A stretch of 64,000 nt of DNA from Alphaproteobacteria bacterium. Lineage in GTDB: Bacteria > Pseudomonadota > Alphaproteobacteria > Caulobacterales > Maricaulaceae. Positions 51,818 to 63,753 of this stretch are shown here, piece by piece. Each line of letters opens with the position of its first letter. Positions within the stretch are counted from its first letter, which is position 1. The stretch covers positions 1 through 64,000 of the forward strand of contig JAJRSJ010000038.1 in the NCBI GenBank assembly GCA_024278855.1. Direction: 5' to 3'. The position numbers and the translations under genes were made by a program. The notes beneath the pieces are model-generated. The model saw nothing but the letters and a program-made list of their open reading frames with translations, did not search any database and had not been told where the DNA came from.

Positions 51818-52591
51818 ATGCAAAATTCAATCATACTATCCAGCATATCCAAGCCGCTTATTATTGCTTTGATGTCTGCGGTTGCCGCACCCGTATTGGT
51901 GTTCGCACCTGATGCATTTGCGACGAAACCCAGCTTTACCCGTGACATTGATGGTGATGACGCTCGCGAAAATCGACGCCGGGATAACACAAGACCCAAC
52001 CAACGCCGCAGAGACCATGCAAGGCCCAACCAAAACCGTAGGGATCATGCGCGGGCTAATCAGAACCGTAGAGATCATGCGCGGCCTAACCGACACCGTA
52101 GAGATCACGCACGGCCTAACCGACACCGTAGAGATCACGCCAGACAGGACAGGCACCGTAGAGATAATTGGCGCCCAGATCGTCACCGGCGTGACCATGC
52201 GAGACGGGATCGTCACCGCAGAGATCACTGGCGTGCAGATCGTCACCGCCGTGACCACGCTAGGCGCAACGCGCACTGGAGCCACTGGAGCAACAGGCAC
52301 AACGGCTACCGCTCACATTACCGCAGCTCCATAGGCATTAATTTCAGCTTTGGGCAGCCGGGGTATAGCCGCTACCGTTGGGCAAGTTCACCCTATAGTT
52401 TTTATCAACCGCGTTATTCTTCCTATTGGGCTTATACAGCTACGACCTATTGTGAGCGCGTCTTGATCGAGGCTAATCACCACGGGCATAGAGAGCTGAT
52501 TAGTGTCAAGCAATGCTCCAATCCCTATGACGGCACTTATATCATCCAAGGCAGTGAGCAAATCGTAAACTGTACCTATCGGGGATATTAA
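51818..52591 (+). CDS. Exported protein with ten 10-residue Arg/His/Asp/Asn repeats
   Basis: A 257-residue protein of unknown function. The signal peptide ends near 36 (DAFAT). Residues 53-152 are ten units of a 10-residue repeat of the form RRDHARPNxx, dense in Arg, His, Asp and Asn. Then comes a Trp/His/Ser stretch (HWSHWSNRHNGYRSHYRSS) and a Tyr/Ser-rich region. A C-terminal part has three cysteines (YCERV, VKQCSNP, VNCTYRGY) and may be folded. The mature domain should bind anions, metals or nucleic acid; that is inference. The ribosome site is AAAGGAG. Confidence 0.8.
   Translation: MQNSIILSSISKPLIIALMSAVAAPVLVFAPDAFATKPSFTRDIDGDDARENRRRDNTRPNQRRRDHARPNQNRRDHARANQNRRDHARPNRHRRDHARPNRHRRDHARQDRHRRDNWRPDRHRRDHARRDRHRRDHWRADRHRRDHARRNAHWSHWSNRHNGYRSHYRSSIGINFSFGQPGYSRYRWASSPYSFYQPRYSSYWAYTATTYCERVLIEANHHGHRELISVKQCSNPYDGTYIIQGSEQIVNCTYRGY
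51974..52273. repeat. 30-bp coding tandem repeat, ten units
   Basis: Ten in-frame 30-bp units encode the RRDHARPN-type decapeptide array of the exported protein. Units 4 and 5 are almost identical at DNA level (CGACACCGTAGAGATCACGC recurs), while outer units differ. The period of 30 bp means that gain or loss of units keeps the reading frame. Confidence 0.85.
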
Positions 52592-56406: not shown

Positions 56407-58701
56407 GTGGTCGATAAAAAAATCAATATAACTAGCATTGAAGACGGAGAAACACCTAAGCAACCTGATTTGAGTGTTGATAGCCTTGATCTGGTAGATG
56501 TTATAAAACCTCAAACGGCGGCACACAACAATGCCCCCTCGCCTGATTTCGTTGACAAAGTTGATTTTGGCTGGATCAACCGGCTCGTAATTGGCGCAAG
56601 TTTAATCTGGCTTATCATTGTCAGTGCTTTGCTTTTTGGCGTGCTAGACATCATCAATGCTTGGCAAGCTTATTCACCGTTACAATGGGCCTCTATAGCT
56701 GCATTGGTTTTGGGGCCGATTTTACTCATTATTGTCACGGCATATGGTCTTAAGCAATTGGCGAAACTGTCAAGGCAAGCCCATATGCTCAACCGGGCCG
56801 CAGCCGCGCTCACCACCCCAGATAAAACCGTTATTGGCAAAAGTAAAATCATGGCAGAGGCCATTGCGGCGCAAATTGACCATGTTGACACCAAATTAGA
56901 CACGAGCCTTGCCCGCCTTGGCACTATGGATAAGGCGGTTCAAATCCAGGCGAATACCTTGCAAGCCGCCAATGAAGATGTGCGCGAAACCGTTGGCGCA
57001 ATCAACGACAGCGTTCAAGTTCAAAAACAAACCCTCCTTGATATGACTGAAACTTTGGACTTAAGCATGGTAAATCTGTCTAATACTTTAATCATGCATA
57101 CGGACAATCTTGCCAAGGCCGTACAAATCGCCGAACAAAAAATCAAAGAAGCCCGGATCAGCGTTGAGGGCGCCACCGCCAAGATCAATTCCGCCTCCGA
57201 CATCGTGCGCTCCAACACGGTACAAGCCGCCTCGACGCTCAGTGCCAGCCATGAGGACATCAAGAGCCTAGGGGATATTATTCGCCAGCGTTCAGAGGAA
57301 TTGGACACAGTTTACAAGAAACATGCCGGAGAGTTAACGGCGATGATTGAGCATTTGCGCGACGAGCAAACGTCTCTTGGTGCGAGCATGCAGGAGCGTT
57401 TAACTAAAATGCGTGATTTATCCTTGTCGGCGCAAGCTAGCGCAGAAAGCCTGACGGAAGCCTCGCGCTCGGGCAAGGAAACCATCGAAGCTTTGGCCGA
57501 GTCTGCATCGCTGGCCGATAGCGCCGTCAAAGCCCGGTTCGCAGAAATGCGCGATATGGTGCAATACTCAACTGAACACGCCCAAAGTATCAGCGATATG
57601 GCGGCCCAGCGTGTGCAGGACAGTCTTGAGCTGACCCGTAAGGAAATCACCCGTATTGAACGGGAAATGGCAGGGTTACAAAGCCGGATTGGTAATGAAC
57701 AACACAAATCCCTTGAAACACATAAAACACATGAAACACATGAAACACATAATTCGCCTAAGGCACATAAATCCCTGGAGCTTGTACCTGATGACAGCGA
57801 GATGCAGGCCGAACCACCTAACCAAAACAACCCAACAAAACCGAGAAAGCCAAGGCGGACACGCTTGAAGCTTAAACCCGTTGTTGAAATTGTGGAAGAT
57901 TTGCCAAGGGCTAATCTGTTGCCGACACACAGCGACCCTACCTCAAATACAAAGATTGATCTTGATGAAAAAATCAATCCAGAACTAGAAGAACGACCGC
58001 TACTGGAACTCGGCGGCGGCCTGATTGACCCGGATGTATTGCGGCAGAACATTGAAAAGATCCCGCCTGACCCACAAGCACCAGTGCGACAAGCATCAGT
58101 GCCACAAATACCAGATCCACAAATTAAAGAGCAAACTACACCACATCCAGACGAAGCAACAATCCGCCGCAGCGTGCCAATTGACGCAGGGCGTAAAACC
58201 AAATCTAAATCCGGCGGTTTTTTGCGTAATATTTTCAAATCAAAAAATCAAACAGATACGCCTTCTAGCCTTGATATTGTAACACCGCCAAACCGCACAC
58301 CAGGTGCCAAAAACTCGACCAGAAACCCCGCCAGAAACCCAGATGATGCGGCAGGTGAAGACGAGGATATTTTGGCCGATTTGGCGCAATTGGGATTATC
58401 CGTAAATGCGGTTGTCGATGATGGCTGCATCATTGAAGCAAGCAATGCGCGGGCAACACAAGGTCACGAGGCCATGAGCAAATGCGTAGCTATGCGGCTT
58501 AAAAACCCGGTAGAGCATCTGGTCAGATCATTGGCCGTCAATGATGAGCTGAGTGATAAAGCTATCAATTTTGCCACCCGTTTTAACCAATCCGTAGAAG
58601 CATTGGCACAAAACCGAGAGGCCGTTCGGACAAAGTTGGAAAGCGAAACCGGACGCGCCTATCTTCTTTGCGACGCGGCGTTGAATTATGGACGCGGGTA
58701 A
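56407..58701 (+). CDS. TipN-like membrane coiled-coil protein
   Basis: A 764-residue protein with two transmembrane helices (58-80 and 94-115) and a long predicted coiled coil (about 150-440, heptad-rich, ADKAVQIQAN style). A low-complexity part follows with a His/Thr/Glu repeat (HKTHETHETHN) and Pro/Gln-rich linkers, then a compact C-terminal domain (about 660-764; GRAYLLCDAAL). Two N-terminal helices plus a large coiled coil is the layout of the polarity marker TipN of Caulobacter. That match is by architecture only. The start is GTG 56407 behind AAAGGG. The length is below the ~880 aa I recall for Caulobacter TipN. Confidence 0.65.
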   Translation: MVDKKINITSIEDGETPKQPDLSVDSLDLVDVIKPQTAAHNNAPSPDFVDKVDFGWINRLVIGASLIWLIIVSALLFGVLDIINAWQAYSPLQWASIAALVLGPILLIIVTAYGLKQLAKLSRQAHMLNRAAAALTTPDKTVIGKSKIMAEAIAAQIDHVDTKLDTSLARLGTMDKAVQIQANTLQAANEDVRETVGAINDSVQVQKQTLLDMTETLDLSMVNLSNTLIMHTDNLAKAVQIAEQKIKEARISVEGATAKINSASDIVRSNTVQAASTLSASHEDIKSLGDIIRQRSEELDTVYKKHAGELTAMIEHLRDEQTSLGASMQERLTKMRDLSLSAQASAESLTEASRSGKETIEALAESASLADSAVKARFAEMRDMVQYSTEHAQSISDMAAQRVQDSLELTRKEITRIEREMAGLQSRIGNEQHKSLETHKTHETHETHNSPKAHKSLELVPDDSEMQAEPPNQNNPTKPRKPRRTRLKLKPVVEIVEDLPRANLLPTHSDPTSNTKIDLDEKINPELEERPLLELGGGLIDPDVLRQNIEKIPPDPQAPVRQASVPQIPDPQIKEQTTPHPDEATIRRSVPIDAGRKTKSKSGGFLRNIFKSKNQTDTPSSLDIVTPPNRTPGAKNSTRNPARNPDDAAGEDEDILADLAQLGLSVNAVVDDGCIIEASNARATQGHEAMSKCVAMRLKNPVEHLVRSLAVNDELSDKAINFATRFNQSVEALAQNREAVRTKLESETGRAYLLCDAALNYGRG
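57715..57750. repeat. 9-bp tandem repeat in the TipN-like gene
   Basis: Four copies of [G/A]AAACACAT (57715-57723, 57724-57732, 57733-57741, 57742-57750) encode ETH/KTH units. A 9-bp in-frame unit can vary without breaking the gene. Confidence 0.7.
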
Positions 58702-58735
58702 ATCAAATTTTTGAGTGTCAAATATTTGTGATTAA

Positions 58736-58997
58736 GGTCAGGCCCAATTAAATACATCAATTCTGCTCTTGTTATGTGTTTTCTGAGCAGGCGTAAGACC
58801 GCAGGACGTGCCGCTCACATCCAAGGGCTTGCAACGCACTCAGGAAACACATAACAAGAGCCCAAAGGGTTGGCCCTATCCGCCCTTGGCGCTACGAAAA
58901 CCTGTCTGGAGTTAGCTATGGCTAGTCCTGCGACAGGTTTCCTTGCTCCAAGAACGGATAGAGCCAACAGAATTGATGTATTTAATTGGGCCTGACC
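58736..58997. repeat. 262-bp nested inverted-repeat element (MITE/REP-like)
   Basis: The ends are 30-bp perfect inverted repeats (58736-58765 and 58968-58997; terminal GGTCAGGCCC / GGGCCTGACC). Inside are two arms. Arm A pairs 58765-58787 with 58839-58861 (23 bp, one G-T wobble). Arm B pairs 58869-58882 with 58955-58968 (one mismatch), then 58885-58889 with 58948-58952, then 58898-58906 with 58932-58940 (9 bp perfect). No long ORF fits inside. A multibranched structure with GGTCAG-type ends resembles non-autonomous elements moved by IS200/RAYT-type Y1 transposases. It lies between the TipN-like gene and cysK, and 58702-59065 holds nothing else recognisable apart from the cysK leader. Confidence 0.75.
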
Positions 58998-59065
58998 CTA
59001 GTTCTAAAACCACTTGAAGGTTAGGCTTGGAAACTCTAGGCGTGAAAGCAAGGAGAATTGCTAGA

Positions 59066-60061
59066 ATGACGGCCCAAAACATAATCGACCTGATTGGCAA
59101 TACGCCGCTTATTCGCTTAAACGCAGCATCCGAGATTACGGGTTGTGAGATTTTAGGCAAAGCCGAATTTCTCAACCCCGGCCAGTCTGTCAAAGACAGG
59201 GCCGCCCTGTATATTATCCGGGCGGCTGAAGCTGCAGGCACGTTAAAGCCCGGCGGTACAGTCGTAGAGGGTACGGCGGGCAATACCGGTATCGGACTGG
59301 CTATGGTGTGTTCGGCCTTGGGGTATACGTGTAAAATCGTCATTCCGCGCACCCAGTCCAAAGAAAAAAAAGATGCCATCCGCCTCATGGGAGCGGAATT
59401 GATTGAAGTGGACGCTGTGCCCTATTCCGACCCGGGCAATTACGTGCATTATTCCGAGCGTCTGGCCAAAGAAATCGGGGCGGTATGGGCCAATCAATTT
59501 GATAATACGGCCAATAGAGACGCCCATATTCGCGGCACAGCTAAGGAAATATTCGCACAAACGGGCGGTAAAGTTGACGGGTTTATATGCTCGGTTGGCT
59601 CCGGAGGGACATTGGGCGGTGTATCGCTTGGCCTAAAAAGCAAAAACCCAAATATTCAAATCGGTATTGCCGATCCGGGCGGCTCGAAGCTGTATTCTTA
59701 TTACCAAGACGGTGTCCTTAAATCCGAAGGTGGTTCCGTGACCGAAGGCATTGGCCAAGGCCGCATTACCGCTAATCTTGAGGGCATATGTGTGGACCGG
59801 GCTTACCGGGTAAAGGATGCCGAGGCGCTGAAAATACTGTTCGGGTTGACGCAAAACGAAGGCATGTGCTTGGGCGGGTCATCTGGTATCAATATTGCCG
59901 GGGCCATTGCTATGGCCAAAGCTATGGCCAAGGAAAAAGGGCCGGGCCAAACAATCGTTACCATGTTGTGCGATTATGGGGCGCGCTACCAGTCCAAGCT
60001 TTATAACCCGGCGTTCTTACGCGAGAAAAACCTGCCGATACCGCCGTGGATGTCCGCATGA
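59066..60061 (+). CDS. cysK: Cysteine synthase
   Basis: This is a PLP enzyme that makes cysteine from O-acetylserine and sulfide. K43 in PGQSVKDRAAL is the PLP lysine, and GTAGNTGIGLA and SVGSGGTLGGVS are the PLP-phosphate and substrate loops. The length is 331 aa. I choose ATG 59066 with AAGGAG ten bases before it. The TTG at 59027 is not needed for the conserved NIIDLIGNTPLIRL start. It overlaps metC by 4 bp (ATGA). Confidence 0.94.
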   Translation: MTAQNIIDLIGNTPLIRLNAASEITGCEILGKAEFLNPGQSVKDRAALYIIRAAEAAGTLKPGGTVVEGTAGNTGIGLAMVCSALGYTCKIVIPRTQSKEKKDAIRLMGAELIEVDAVPYSDPGNYVHYSERLAKEIGAVWANQFDNTANRDAHIRGTAKEIFAQTGGKVDGFICSVGSGGTLGGVSLGLKSKNPNIQIGIADPGGSKLYSYYQDGVLKSEGGSVTEGIGQGRITANLEGICVDRAYRVKDAEALKILFGLTQNEGMCLGGSSGINIAGAIAMAKAMAKEKGPGQTIVTMLCDYGARYQSKLYNPAFLREKNLPIPPWMSA

Positions 60062-61749: not shown

Positions 61750-63753
61750 TCAGCATTTTTTTACATTGAGACCGCTTTTCTCTTGTTGTTGCTCAGCAGT
61801 GGCAAAATGCGGTTGAGGTGAGTTTTGTTGCGGCGAATGAGGAGGATGTGAAGGATTAAGGCGTGCAGGATGTTGCCCGATGTTTTGCCCGCCGTGCATT
61901 TGAGCTTGGGCTTGGGCTTGGGCTTGGGCTTGGGCTTGGGCTTGGGCTTGAGACTGAGTCTGGGCTTGAGTTTGGCGAACAGGTTGGTTTAAATTCGCTT
62001 GCTGATGTGATGTTTGTAAAACAGGAGAGGCCCTTTGGGGTTCTACCTTTGTGCGTGTTCGCCAGCTCTCGAACACACCCGCCATGAATTCCGGTGAAAC
62101 ATCACCTTCGTTCCACAATTGGGTAAATTCGGCGCTAGAGCTGTGTGGTCGGCGTTCTTCGGCCAAGTTGTCTAGCACCACCCGCATAGGTAAATTTACG
62201 CTTTCCCCAAACACCATAGTTTCTGCCGTACCTAAGGAAGGGAGAAACGATAATAAATCCGCAGCACCGTCCGGAATAGCGGCGCGGACAAAGTTTTGGT
62301 CGCGTGCATTTCCCAGACGCATTGAAAAAATTGTACTGCACTGGGAGAGTGTTGACGGTTCAAGCTCCGATGGCCGTTGAGATATAATGGCAAGGGATAC
62401 ACCGTATTTACGGCCCTCCTTGGCAATGCGCGAAATAGACCGCCTTGTGGCGGCAAACCCTAGTGATTTATCCGCCGGAATATATCTATGGGCTTCCTCG
62501 CACACCAACAAAATAGGAATTTTTCTCTGACTCCACATGGCAAGTTCAAATGCGAGACGGCTAACTACCGACACGACAATATTCATGGTCCCGGAAGGAA
62601 TACCGGAAAAATCAAGAATACACATTGGTTTACCCGCTACCGGTATGCGAAATATGGTTCCGGTAATATCTTGAATAGAGCGCGGTGCGGCTTGGTTTCT
62701 AAAAATAAACTGATAACGCGGGTCAGCCATCAGGCTGTTAACCCGGCGTTTTAAGCGCTTATAGGGGCCAATATTGCCGGAATTTTCCAACCTGCCCATA
62801 TAAAAGTCCAATAATTTAATCACATCTTGCATTTTGTAGGGAACTGGCGAATCCAGTGATATATGTGCGGCAGCGCGGTGCAATTCCTGTTCAAGGTTTT
62901 CCATTTTAGCATGGGGGCTACTTAAACCACCGGACTGCCTTGAGCGGTCATAAAGTTGTTTCGCCTTGAGAATGACATCATTTAAAACTTCTATTTCTTC
63001 GCGTTTATGATCCAAAATTTCCGAGGTCAAAAGCTCAGCCGTTTCTTCAAAGTCAAATAGCCATATGGGCAGGTCAAATTCTTTAGGCCCGATCACACTG
63101 GCAAGATTTCCGAAACTTTTGCTGTATTCATTATGTGGGTCAAACAAGACCATATGGGCATTTGGGTTCTCGTCCAAAATTGCCTGTAATACCAGTGCAA
63201 CCGTACAGGATTTACCCGAACCGGTTGAGCCGATAATGGCGAAATGTTTTGATAACAAATCATTGGGTTTTACGCGCGCCACAATATTATCATCCTGTTG
63301 CATACGCCCGACGGCAATGCTCGGCGAGTTCCCGGTTGAAAAAATCAATTCAAGTTCATTGGTTTTCATGGTTAGTGCAGGTTGGTTAAGCACAGGAAAC
63401 GTCCGCACCCCTCTAAAAAACTTGGTTTCGCGGGTGGTTTTATTGGTTGATATTTCGCCGAGAATGCTGAGATGGGCAATACAGCCATCACTCATGCCCT
63501 CGTCGTCAGCCGCCCCCACCTTCAAATTTGACACCATAGCCACAACCAAAGAGCTATTTGTCACAATTTTCAAAACCGTACCAAGCTCTAGCAAATGCAA
63601 TTGGTTATTGCTGATGATGGTTTTGTTGACCGCGATAATAACTTGGGACGATCCAACCGACATGATCCGCCCAACCTCCACATGTTTCAGCGCTAGCTTG
63701 GCCGTAATAACAGGCTTAGGCTTTCTATCAGTATATTCATTTGAAGTCAGCAT
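61750..63753 (-). CDS. HerA/DUF87-type ATPase
   Basis: A 667-residue protein with an N-terminal HAS-barrel-like domain (about 20-160), Walker A GSTGSGKS at 175-182 and Walker B ILLVCEEAHRYIP near 417, then ARISQRPSEL-type sensor motifs (AIISQRPSELEPSTLSQC). This is the HerA-FtsK hexameric pump/helicase class. The last ~100 residues are Gln/Ala/Pro/His-rich, with an expandable Gln-Ala repeat. No NurA nuclease, SIR2 or Duf4297 partner gene is in view, so a role in DNA processing or defence cannot be assigned. It lies between two tRNA genes. Confidence 0.88.
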   Translation of the reverse strand: MLTSNEYTDRKPKPVITAKLALKHVEVGRIMSVGSSQVIIAVNKTIISNNQLHLLELGTVLKIVTNSSLVVAMVSNLKVGAADDEGMSDGCIAHLSILGEISTNKTTRETKFFRGVRTFPVLNQPALTMKTNELELIFSTGNSPSIAVGRMQQDDNIVARVKPNDLLSKHFAIIGSTGSGKSCTVALVLQAILDENPNAHMVLFDPHNEYSKSFGNLASVIGPKEFDLPIWLFDFEETAELLTSEILDHKREEIEVLNDVILKAKQLYDRSRQSGGLSSPHAKMENLEQELHRAAAHISLDSPVPYKMQDVIKLLDFYMGRLENSGNIGPYKRLKRRVNSLMADPRYQFIFRNQAAPRSIQDITGTIFRIPVAGKPMCILDFSGIPSGTMNIVVSVVSRLAFELAMWSQRKIPILLVCEEAHRYIPADKSLGFAATRRSISRIAKEGRKYGVSLAIISQRPSELEPSTLSQCSTIFSMRLGNARDQNFVRAAIPDGAADLLSFLPSLGTAETMVFGESVNLPMRVVLDNLAEERRPHSSSAEFTQLWNEGDVSPEFMAGVFESWRTRTKVEPQRASPVLQTSHQQANLNQPVRQTQAQTQSQAQAQAQAQAQAQAQAQMHGGQNIGQHPARLNPSHPPHSPQQNSPQPHFATAEQQQEKSGLNVKKC
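61904..61951. repeat. Hexanucleotide tandem repeat in the HerA-like gene
   Basis: Seven perfect GCTTGG units and one GCTTGA follow each other and code for a Gln-Ala string on the minus strand. Length changes in steps of 6 bp would keep the reading frame. Confidence 0.85.

Follow-up and report, generated by a model that had tools for sequence, protein, structure and literature searches.

A probable MITE family of Alphaproteobacteria with a body of two head-to-head hairpins predicted to act as RNA

The 264-bp repeat described here is very probably a MITE that inserts at YTAR, duplicates TA and is likely moved by IS5-type enzymes, and whose body consists of two head-to-head covarying hairpins predicted to act as RNA. 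The common view of MITEs is that they are what is left of a decayed IS, with a middle that has no features of its own. The present element is ordinary in its genomic placement and unusual in its conserved twin-hairpin middle. It lies in a window of 64,000 nucleotides (the whole stretch of DNA that was analysed), upstream of a cysteine synthase gene.

The element and its fold

The features of the locus, in window coordinates, are as follows.

58735-58998, no strand: whole mobile element, 264 bp, its limits taken from the empty sites and from the ends YTAGG...CCTAR that most other copies have
58733-58734, no strand: left target-site duplicate TA in a YTAR context, from the empty site and a spacing check
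58999-59000, no strand: right target-site duplicate TA, from the empty site
58736-58765, plus strand: left terminal inverted repeat, 30 bp, the outer part of which matches the ends of IS5-family (IS427-like) IS elements
58968-58997, minus strand: right terminal inverted repeat, 30 bp
58765-58861, plus strand: arm 1, with an outer stem (58765-58787/58839-58861), internal loops and an inner hairpin
58862-58868, no strand: short linker between the arms, a weak mini-hairpin
58869-58968, minus strand: arm 2, the hairpin motif of arm 1 on the opposite strand
58718-58731, plus strand: box TCAAATATTTGTGA, upstream half of the conserved cysteine-synthase upstream region, in 8 of 12 relatives
59066-60061, plus strand: cysteine synthase A gene, downstream of the element (NCBIfam NF007989, 519.8 bits, cut-off 387)

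An earlier note, made from the letters of the window, had described a 262-bp inverted-repeat structure at 58736-58997. That stretch stands, and comparison with the empty site and with the ends of the copies places the true ends one base further out on each side. The first base of the element is A here and G in most other copies. The anatomy that the note had read was confirmed: the two 30-bp terminal repeats are perfect (30 of 30 positions on the minus strand), the 23-bp arm around a 51-nt loop is 96% complementary, and a second, interrupted arm is present at about 58869-58968. There is no gene-like ORF within the element; a mechanical ORF on the minus strand, 58912-59388, overlaps its right part.

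The fold of the element is far better than chance. As single-stranded DNA it reaches -88.5 kcal/mol against -32.9 +/- 3.4 for shuffled sequences (z -16.4), and none of 200 shuffles was as good. The multibranched fold takes the form of a three-way junction of the terminal stem, arm 1 and arm 2. The suggestion that the structure might be an intrinsic terminator had to be given up, as no terminator-like site was found in 58600-59150.

Two other repeats were seen in the window, an imperfect tandem array of ~30-bp repeats at 51998-52260 and a run of the 6-bp unit TTGGGC (61900-61950, 8.5 copies) in the C-terminal part of the ORF 61750-63753.

Insertion sites

The ends read YTAGG...CCTAR in most copies, and occupied and empty states of the same site were found in relatives at two loci. 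At the window locus the site is empty in genomes G006 and G011, where the upstream region runs continuously across the point at which the window has TA-element-TA. On its other side the element is flanked by an ORF of 764 codons for which NCBIfam gave no match. In 8 of 12 relatives from the genus, a box TCAAAC(N4)GTGA precedes CTTG(A/T)A by 15 nt (six genomes) or 14 nt (two). The gap in the window is 281, that is, 15 + 266 (the element and one TA). The element splits the conserved cysteine-synthase upstream region (58718-59030) and pushes the box away. The TCAAAC-N4-GTGA / CTTG(A/T)A region looks like a regulatory site, and its splitting may have changed the control of the cysteine synthase gene.

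The second locus, for which 5 of the 16 listed rows were read, is empty in G036, G077 and G080 and occupied in G020 and G079. The empty sites are CTAG, which is formed by the overlapping TAG stop codons of two convergent genes; in the occupied sites the element lies inside the CTAG, with the TA doubled. At each end of the element the TA is followed by G, and in this way both convergent genes keep a TAG stop. Insertion within overlapping stop codons with the loss of neither is a tidy and harmless way of inserting.

This is not confined to one site. Of 110 usable ends, 32 supply with their TAG the stop codon of an ORF of at least 100 codons, whereas the other two frames give 5 and 8. These ends come from 70 copies, with 30 of the 140 ends set aside for having no TAGG; nor do the copies count as independent, since G020 and G079 share one insertion. 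A general bias to gene 3' ends was considered and rejected: no excess of 3' ends near the copies was seen by a crude ORF method (67 against 58; 10 further ends had no ORF and 5 were too short to tell), although the exact coincidences with stop codons are enriched. In the absence of a general excess, these coincidences are read as the YTAR target preference combined with tolerance at stop codons, rather than as a sign that the element serves at 3' ends.

Solo 20-bp element ends, YTAGGGTCAGG..., with no second end nearby, also occur, in genome G005 (L128-L132) and in the own genome (L133:1025-1044, contig C57); a 319-codon ORF of the own genome ends in the TAG of a solo element end. Could these solo ends be deletion scars?

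Copies and distribution

The own genome holds four full copies of the element, plus fragments. They are the window copy (contig C45), one on C24 (97% identity), one on C34 (77% over the aligned part) and a diverged one on C58 that was found by a covariance model. The gene beside the C34 copy has a long GGTGGAGGT-type repeat (L003:1201-1273, read by eye). By blastn a match was found in 6 of 61 genomes, the own included, one of them being a 24-base match that may be due to chance. The covariance model R1, built from eight copies of the element, extends this range, some of its matches in the family, order and class being one-arm or partial elements. Within the own genus it matches 8 genomes of 14; at the level of the family the matches come from 28 of 137 genomes (5 of 19 genera), and at that of the order from 30 of 398, spread over 12 of 59 genera and four families. 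In the class it matches 6 of 385 genomes, the own included, and among the five others the match in G688 (E 1.5e-4) is weak and open to doubt. Contigs of three Robiginitomaculum metagenome genomes also contain an exact pattern taken from the element body. Thus, the copy check proposed in the earlier note came out in favour of a mobile family: dispersed copies with the same kind of ends are present in the own and related genomes.

A length filter of 255-290 nt was passed by 78 of 82 copies, which measure 262-285 nt; since it removed four copies (181, 224, 303 and 328 nt), the near-constant length is partly a product of selection. These 78 copies were used for the analyses of strand folding, loop position, GANTC and ends described below. 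No blastn match to plasmids and phages was found at E <= 0.01, and at the gathering score the Rfam searches gave only tRNAs. Two sub-threshold mir-4520 matches on copy L013 (22.5 and 21 bits against 90; E 0.61 and 1.6) were taken as chance. No literature describing this element was found, as judged by titles and the beginnings of abstracts.

It is most improbable that the host itself encodes the repeat, as a regulatory RNA or a 3'-end element whose position simply varies. The conservation of the structure across families of the class and the frequent use of its TAG as a stop codon would fit such an RNA. The clean empty sites at two loci already disfavour it, as do the lack of a 3'-end excess and the patchy presence of the element among the genomes of the family, order and class.

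The hairpin arms of the body

When arm 2 is reverse-complemented it aligns with arm 1, and the two make up a single hairpin motif of ~100 nt with the approximate layout AAGG(A/C)G - stem - GCAGGAA - hairpin - TTTCAAGG - stem - C(A/G)ACG. The arm model R2 was built from 27 arm sequences, among them both arms of the window, and finds arm 1 at 58765-58864 on the plus strand (84.9 bits) and arm 2 at 58866-58967 on the minus strand (70.4 bits). Covariation, which the earlier note had named as the support to be expected of a structured RNA, is present in the arms: in the 27 arms, 29 of 31 pairs have changed on both sides, where shuffling gives a mean of 25.3. Pairing holds in 86.1% of 836 cells, against 56.8 after shuffling and 34.7-51.4 after sliding, and two-sided changes are found in 266 cells against a shuffled mean of 89.6. 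In the eight copies from the own genus, 38 of 107 pairs show double changes; both of these analyses used MAFFT alignments, the structures being predicted from the same alignments. In a model-fitted alignment of 66 copies (the best-strand rows kept from 112 matches) the number is 105 of 107. Of the 27 arms, 22 retain a particular G-U pair.

The internal loops of the arms are conserved and unpaired. The loop could be located in 49 of 78 arm-1 sequences and in only 4 arm-2 sequences; in the 49, one non-canonical pair is A.G in 26 and C.A in 20.

Each arm has its own preferred strand. Folded as RNA, arm 1 is better in the sense strand in 73 of 78 copies (4 opposite) and in 23 of 23 clusters, and arm 2 is better in the antisense strand in 74 of 78 copies (4 opposite) and in 22 of 23 clusters, these clusters sharing ancestry and so not being independent trials. 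The whole element has no preference (34 sense and 41 antisense of 78 copies). The choice of strand by the model cannot create this bias, because turning the element swaps both arm and strand. Mispairs of the G-T kind outnumber those of the A-C kind in arm 1 (179 to 38) and are about as frequent in arm 2 (87 to 84).

The head-to-head arrangement is the common one. At 13 of 15 further loci the arms stand head to head, the motif reading inward from each side; of the remaining two, one has a single arm and one has two arms in the same orientation. In every one of 20 genomes picked for having an R1 match the arm model found arms, from 2 to 65 matches in each, with 65 in G154 and 10 in the own genome. 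One-arm elements were recognized by the arm model at L106, L137 and L089. L127, of 165 bp, appears by eye to be another, and R2 has no match in it.

The pairing in the terminal repeats changes in a different manner from that in the arms. Copies were compared two by two at an identity of 88% or more (33 pairs). Double changes in the outer terminal repeat preserve the pairing in 30 cases and break it in 7, against 89 single changes, whereas arm 1 has 1 pair-keeping double change against 108 single, and arm 2 has 5 against 81. G-T and A-C mispairs in the terminal repeat are about equal, 66 and 70. At least in part, then, the covariation of the terminal repeats is a concerted change at the DNA level or a coevolution with the transposase; being partly concerted, it is weak evidence and was discounted as support for RNA. 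Swapping of terminal repeats between bodies is only suggested, for example by one pair of copies with arm 1 at 0.88 identity and the ends at 11/18.

These terminal-repeat changes are what would be expected if correction of the palindrome at the DNA level, by template switching between arms, kept the pairing, so that covariation would reflect repair and the fold would have no function. For the arms this explanation is improbable and already disfavoured. Their double changes are rare between close copies and abundant at depth, which is the mark of stepwise change; their internal loops, which correction would erase, stay unpaired and conserved; and their folding is strand-specific. For these reasons the arms were counted as evidence for RNA.

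Strand-specific folding, changes on both sides of the pairs and conserved loops together suggest that the arms have a single-strand function, probably as RNA. Of the earlier suggestion of a structured RNA, the structural part is borne out by covariation and strand-specific folding, and a counterpart in Rfam at gathering score was not found. A single-copy sequence, without covariation and without an empty site, had been named as the case against the earlier reading; the findings are the reverse on all three counts.

A candidate transposase

A search with the ends of the element found an IS of 845 bp in G005 (C32:17514-18358), which measures 851 bp from CTAG to CTAG and 845 bp between the TA duplicates. 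Its ends, CTAGGCTCAGGACCTATTAAAT and CTAGGCTCAGGACTCATTAAAT, are of the same kind as those of the element. It has two ORFs in different frames, orfA matching PF13340 (DUF4096) and orfB matching PF01609 (DDE_Tnp_1). With the IS5-family model NF033580 (cut-off 110), orfB scores 133.6 bits and orfA 103.2, below the cut-off when taken alone. This IS thus belongs to the IS5 family, with an IS427-like layout, and its apparent 2-bp duplication was read from its ends. The IS427-group elements of Paracoccus are described as 832-865 bp long, with two overlapping ORFs and a frameshift motif, and nearly all have 2-bp duplicates, one listed member having 4 bp (PMC3281130).

Other relatives of this transposase carry other types of ends, which resemble those of other subfamilies of the element; in G146, the IS and the element have the common end GG(C/T)CGTGAAC(C/T)CATAAA. 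In the end-matching analysis, which covered 73 of the 78 copies, 54 of these 73 TAGG-ended copies agree in at least 14 of 18 positions with an end from a set of 14 IS ends, a level reached by 4 of 3650 shuffled ends with the GG kept. Of 19 IS loci inspected for ends, 7 were readable and 12 were not. The shared ends and the duplication make it likely that the element is moved in trans by IS5-family (IS427-like) transposases.

Relatives of OrfB (E <= 1e-20) are present in 23 of 137 genomes of the family. With a single OrfB query at the same threshold, no close relative was found in the own genome, so that either transposition here is past or the partner was missed by the single-query search. An IS630-like transposase, considered on account of the TA duplication, was rejected for want of a PF13358 match in the own genome. 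In G155, a fragment of an IS5-type transposase and a right half of the element occur together in a 1.9-kb stretch (L119:992-2906), with element-type ends at its limits and other sequence between them, as read by eye.

R2 gives no match in L118, where arms inside the IS were looked for. As the IS is without hairpin arms, the element is not a simple internal deletion of it. The idea of a MITE-like mobile family, which the earlier note had offered as one of several, is therefore supported: many copies have the same ends, empty sites exist, and relatives carry a transposase-bearing IS with matching ends. The element is short and without a transposase gene, has terminal inverted repeats and a TA target-site duplication with an empty site, and has its ends in common with an autonomous IS, in relatives and not in the own genome.

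Proposed mode of action

By combining these observations, it is possible to propose how the element may move and act. An IS5-family (IS427-like) transposase would act on the ends of the element in trans, and the body would hitch-hike with the mobilised ends. Each arm would be in its folding orientation on the strand that is read from its own side. Since each arm folds on that strand, a transcript entering from the neighbourhood on either side would meet a functional hairpin first. With less certainty, this hairpin may shield the element or tune the incoming transcript.

The arms might instead work as folded single-stranded DNA that is bound by the transposase or a host protein in transposition or replication, in the manner of REP/RAYT or IS200 elements. 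This is rather doubtful. The paired inverted hairpins do resemble REP dimers, strand-specific folding and tolerance of G-T fit single-stranded DNA as well as they fit RNA, and neighbouring ORFs often receive a TAG stop from GTAG REPs too (PMC3733652). However, the IS has the same kind of ends and no arms, so its transposase does not need arms to move the IS. A TA duplication is characteristic of DDE-type reactions, and the own genome has no Y1 transposase. Function at the level of RNA is thus judged more likely than function as single-stranded DNA.

If the hairpins act as RNA, a wider reading may be tentatively put forward, namely that the element belongs to a mobile structured-RNA family, in which head-to-head strand-specific hairpins ride on the ends of several IS5-type transposons across the Alphaproteobacteria and present a working RNA hairpin from either side. 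Structural constraint falls here on the middle of the element, across several families of the class and behind several kinds of IS ends. The element thus lends itself to testing whether a transposon passenger can do its work through nucleic-acid structure.

Comparison with known systems

The link to REP/RAYT or IS200-related elements that the earlier note had inferred from the ends did not hold. There are 0 matches to PF01797 (Y1) in the own genome, and a TA duplication and a DDE-type IS5 partner were found instead. Membership among the REP/RAYT elements (a 20-40 bp palindrome, a GTAG or CGTC tag, Y1) was rejected, the arms being ~100 nt. The GTAG-15 REP dimers of Anabaena variabilis are similar in having paired hairpins nested in a longer palindrome, and REP ends can likewise supply TAG stops; REPs differ in being described as 20-40 bp sequences with a GTAG or CGTC tag, against arms of ~100 nt here (PMC3733652).

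The IS427 group shares with the element the kind of ends and the 2-bp (TA) duplication, and with the matching IS its size and ORF layout, 845 bp and two frames (PMC3281130). The element differs in being without an ORF, and the IS in being without hairpin arms.

The CIR elements of Caulobacter and its relatives resemble the element in having two arms and in being alphaproteobacterial and intergenic. They differ, in the description given in PMC2229807, by a length of ~110 bp, the lack of terminal repeats and a conserved GANTC, and on that description the element was set apart from CIR. GANTC is about five times rarer than expected in the 78 copies (16 observed against 81 in shuffled copies); the depleted GANTC is the CcrM methylation site.

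The Correia/NEMIS, ERIC and RUP elements, which are MITEs of other bacteria, are like the present one in being short and non-autonomous, with terminal inverted repeats, TA at the termini and transcripts predicted to be highly base-paired (PMC2229807). They are described there as measuring about 100-200 bp and having long stem-loops, whereas the present element has 264 bp, a three-way junction, two inverted copies of one motif and conserved internal loops, and is found in several families of a class.
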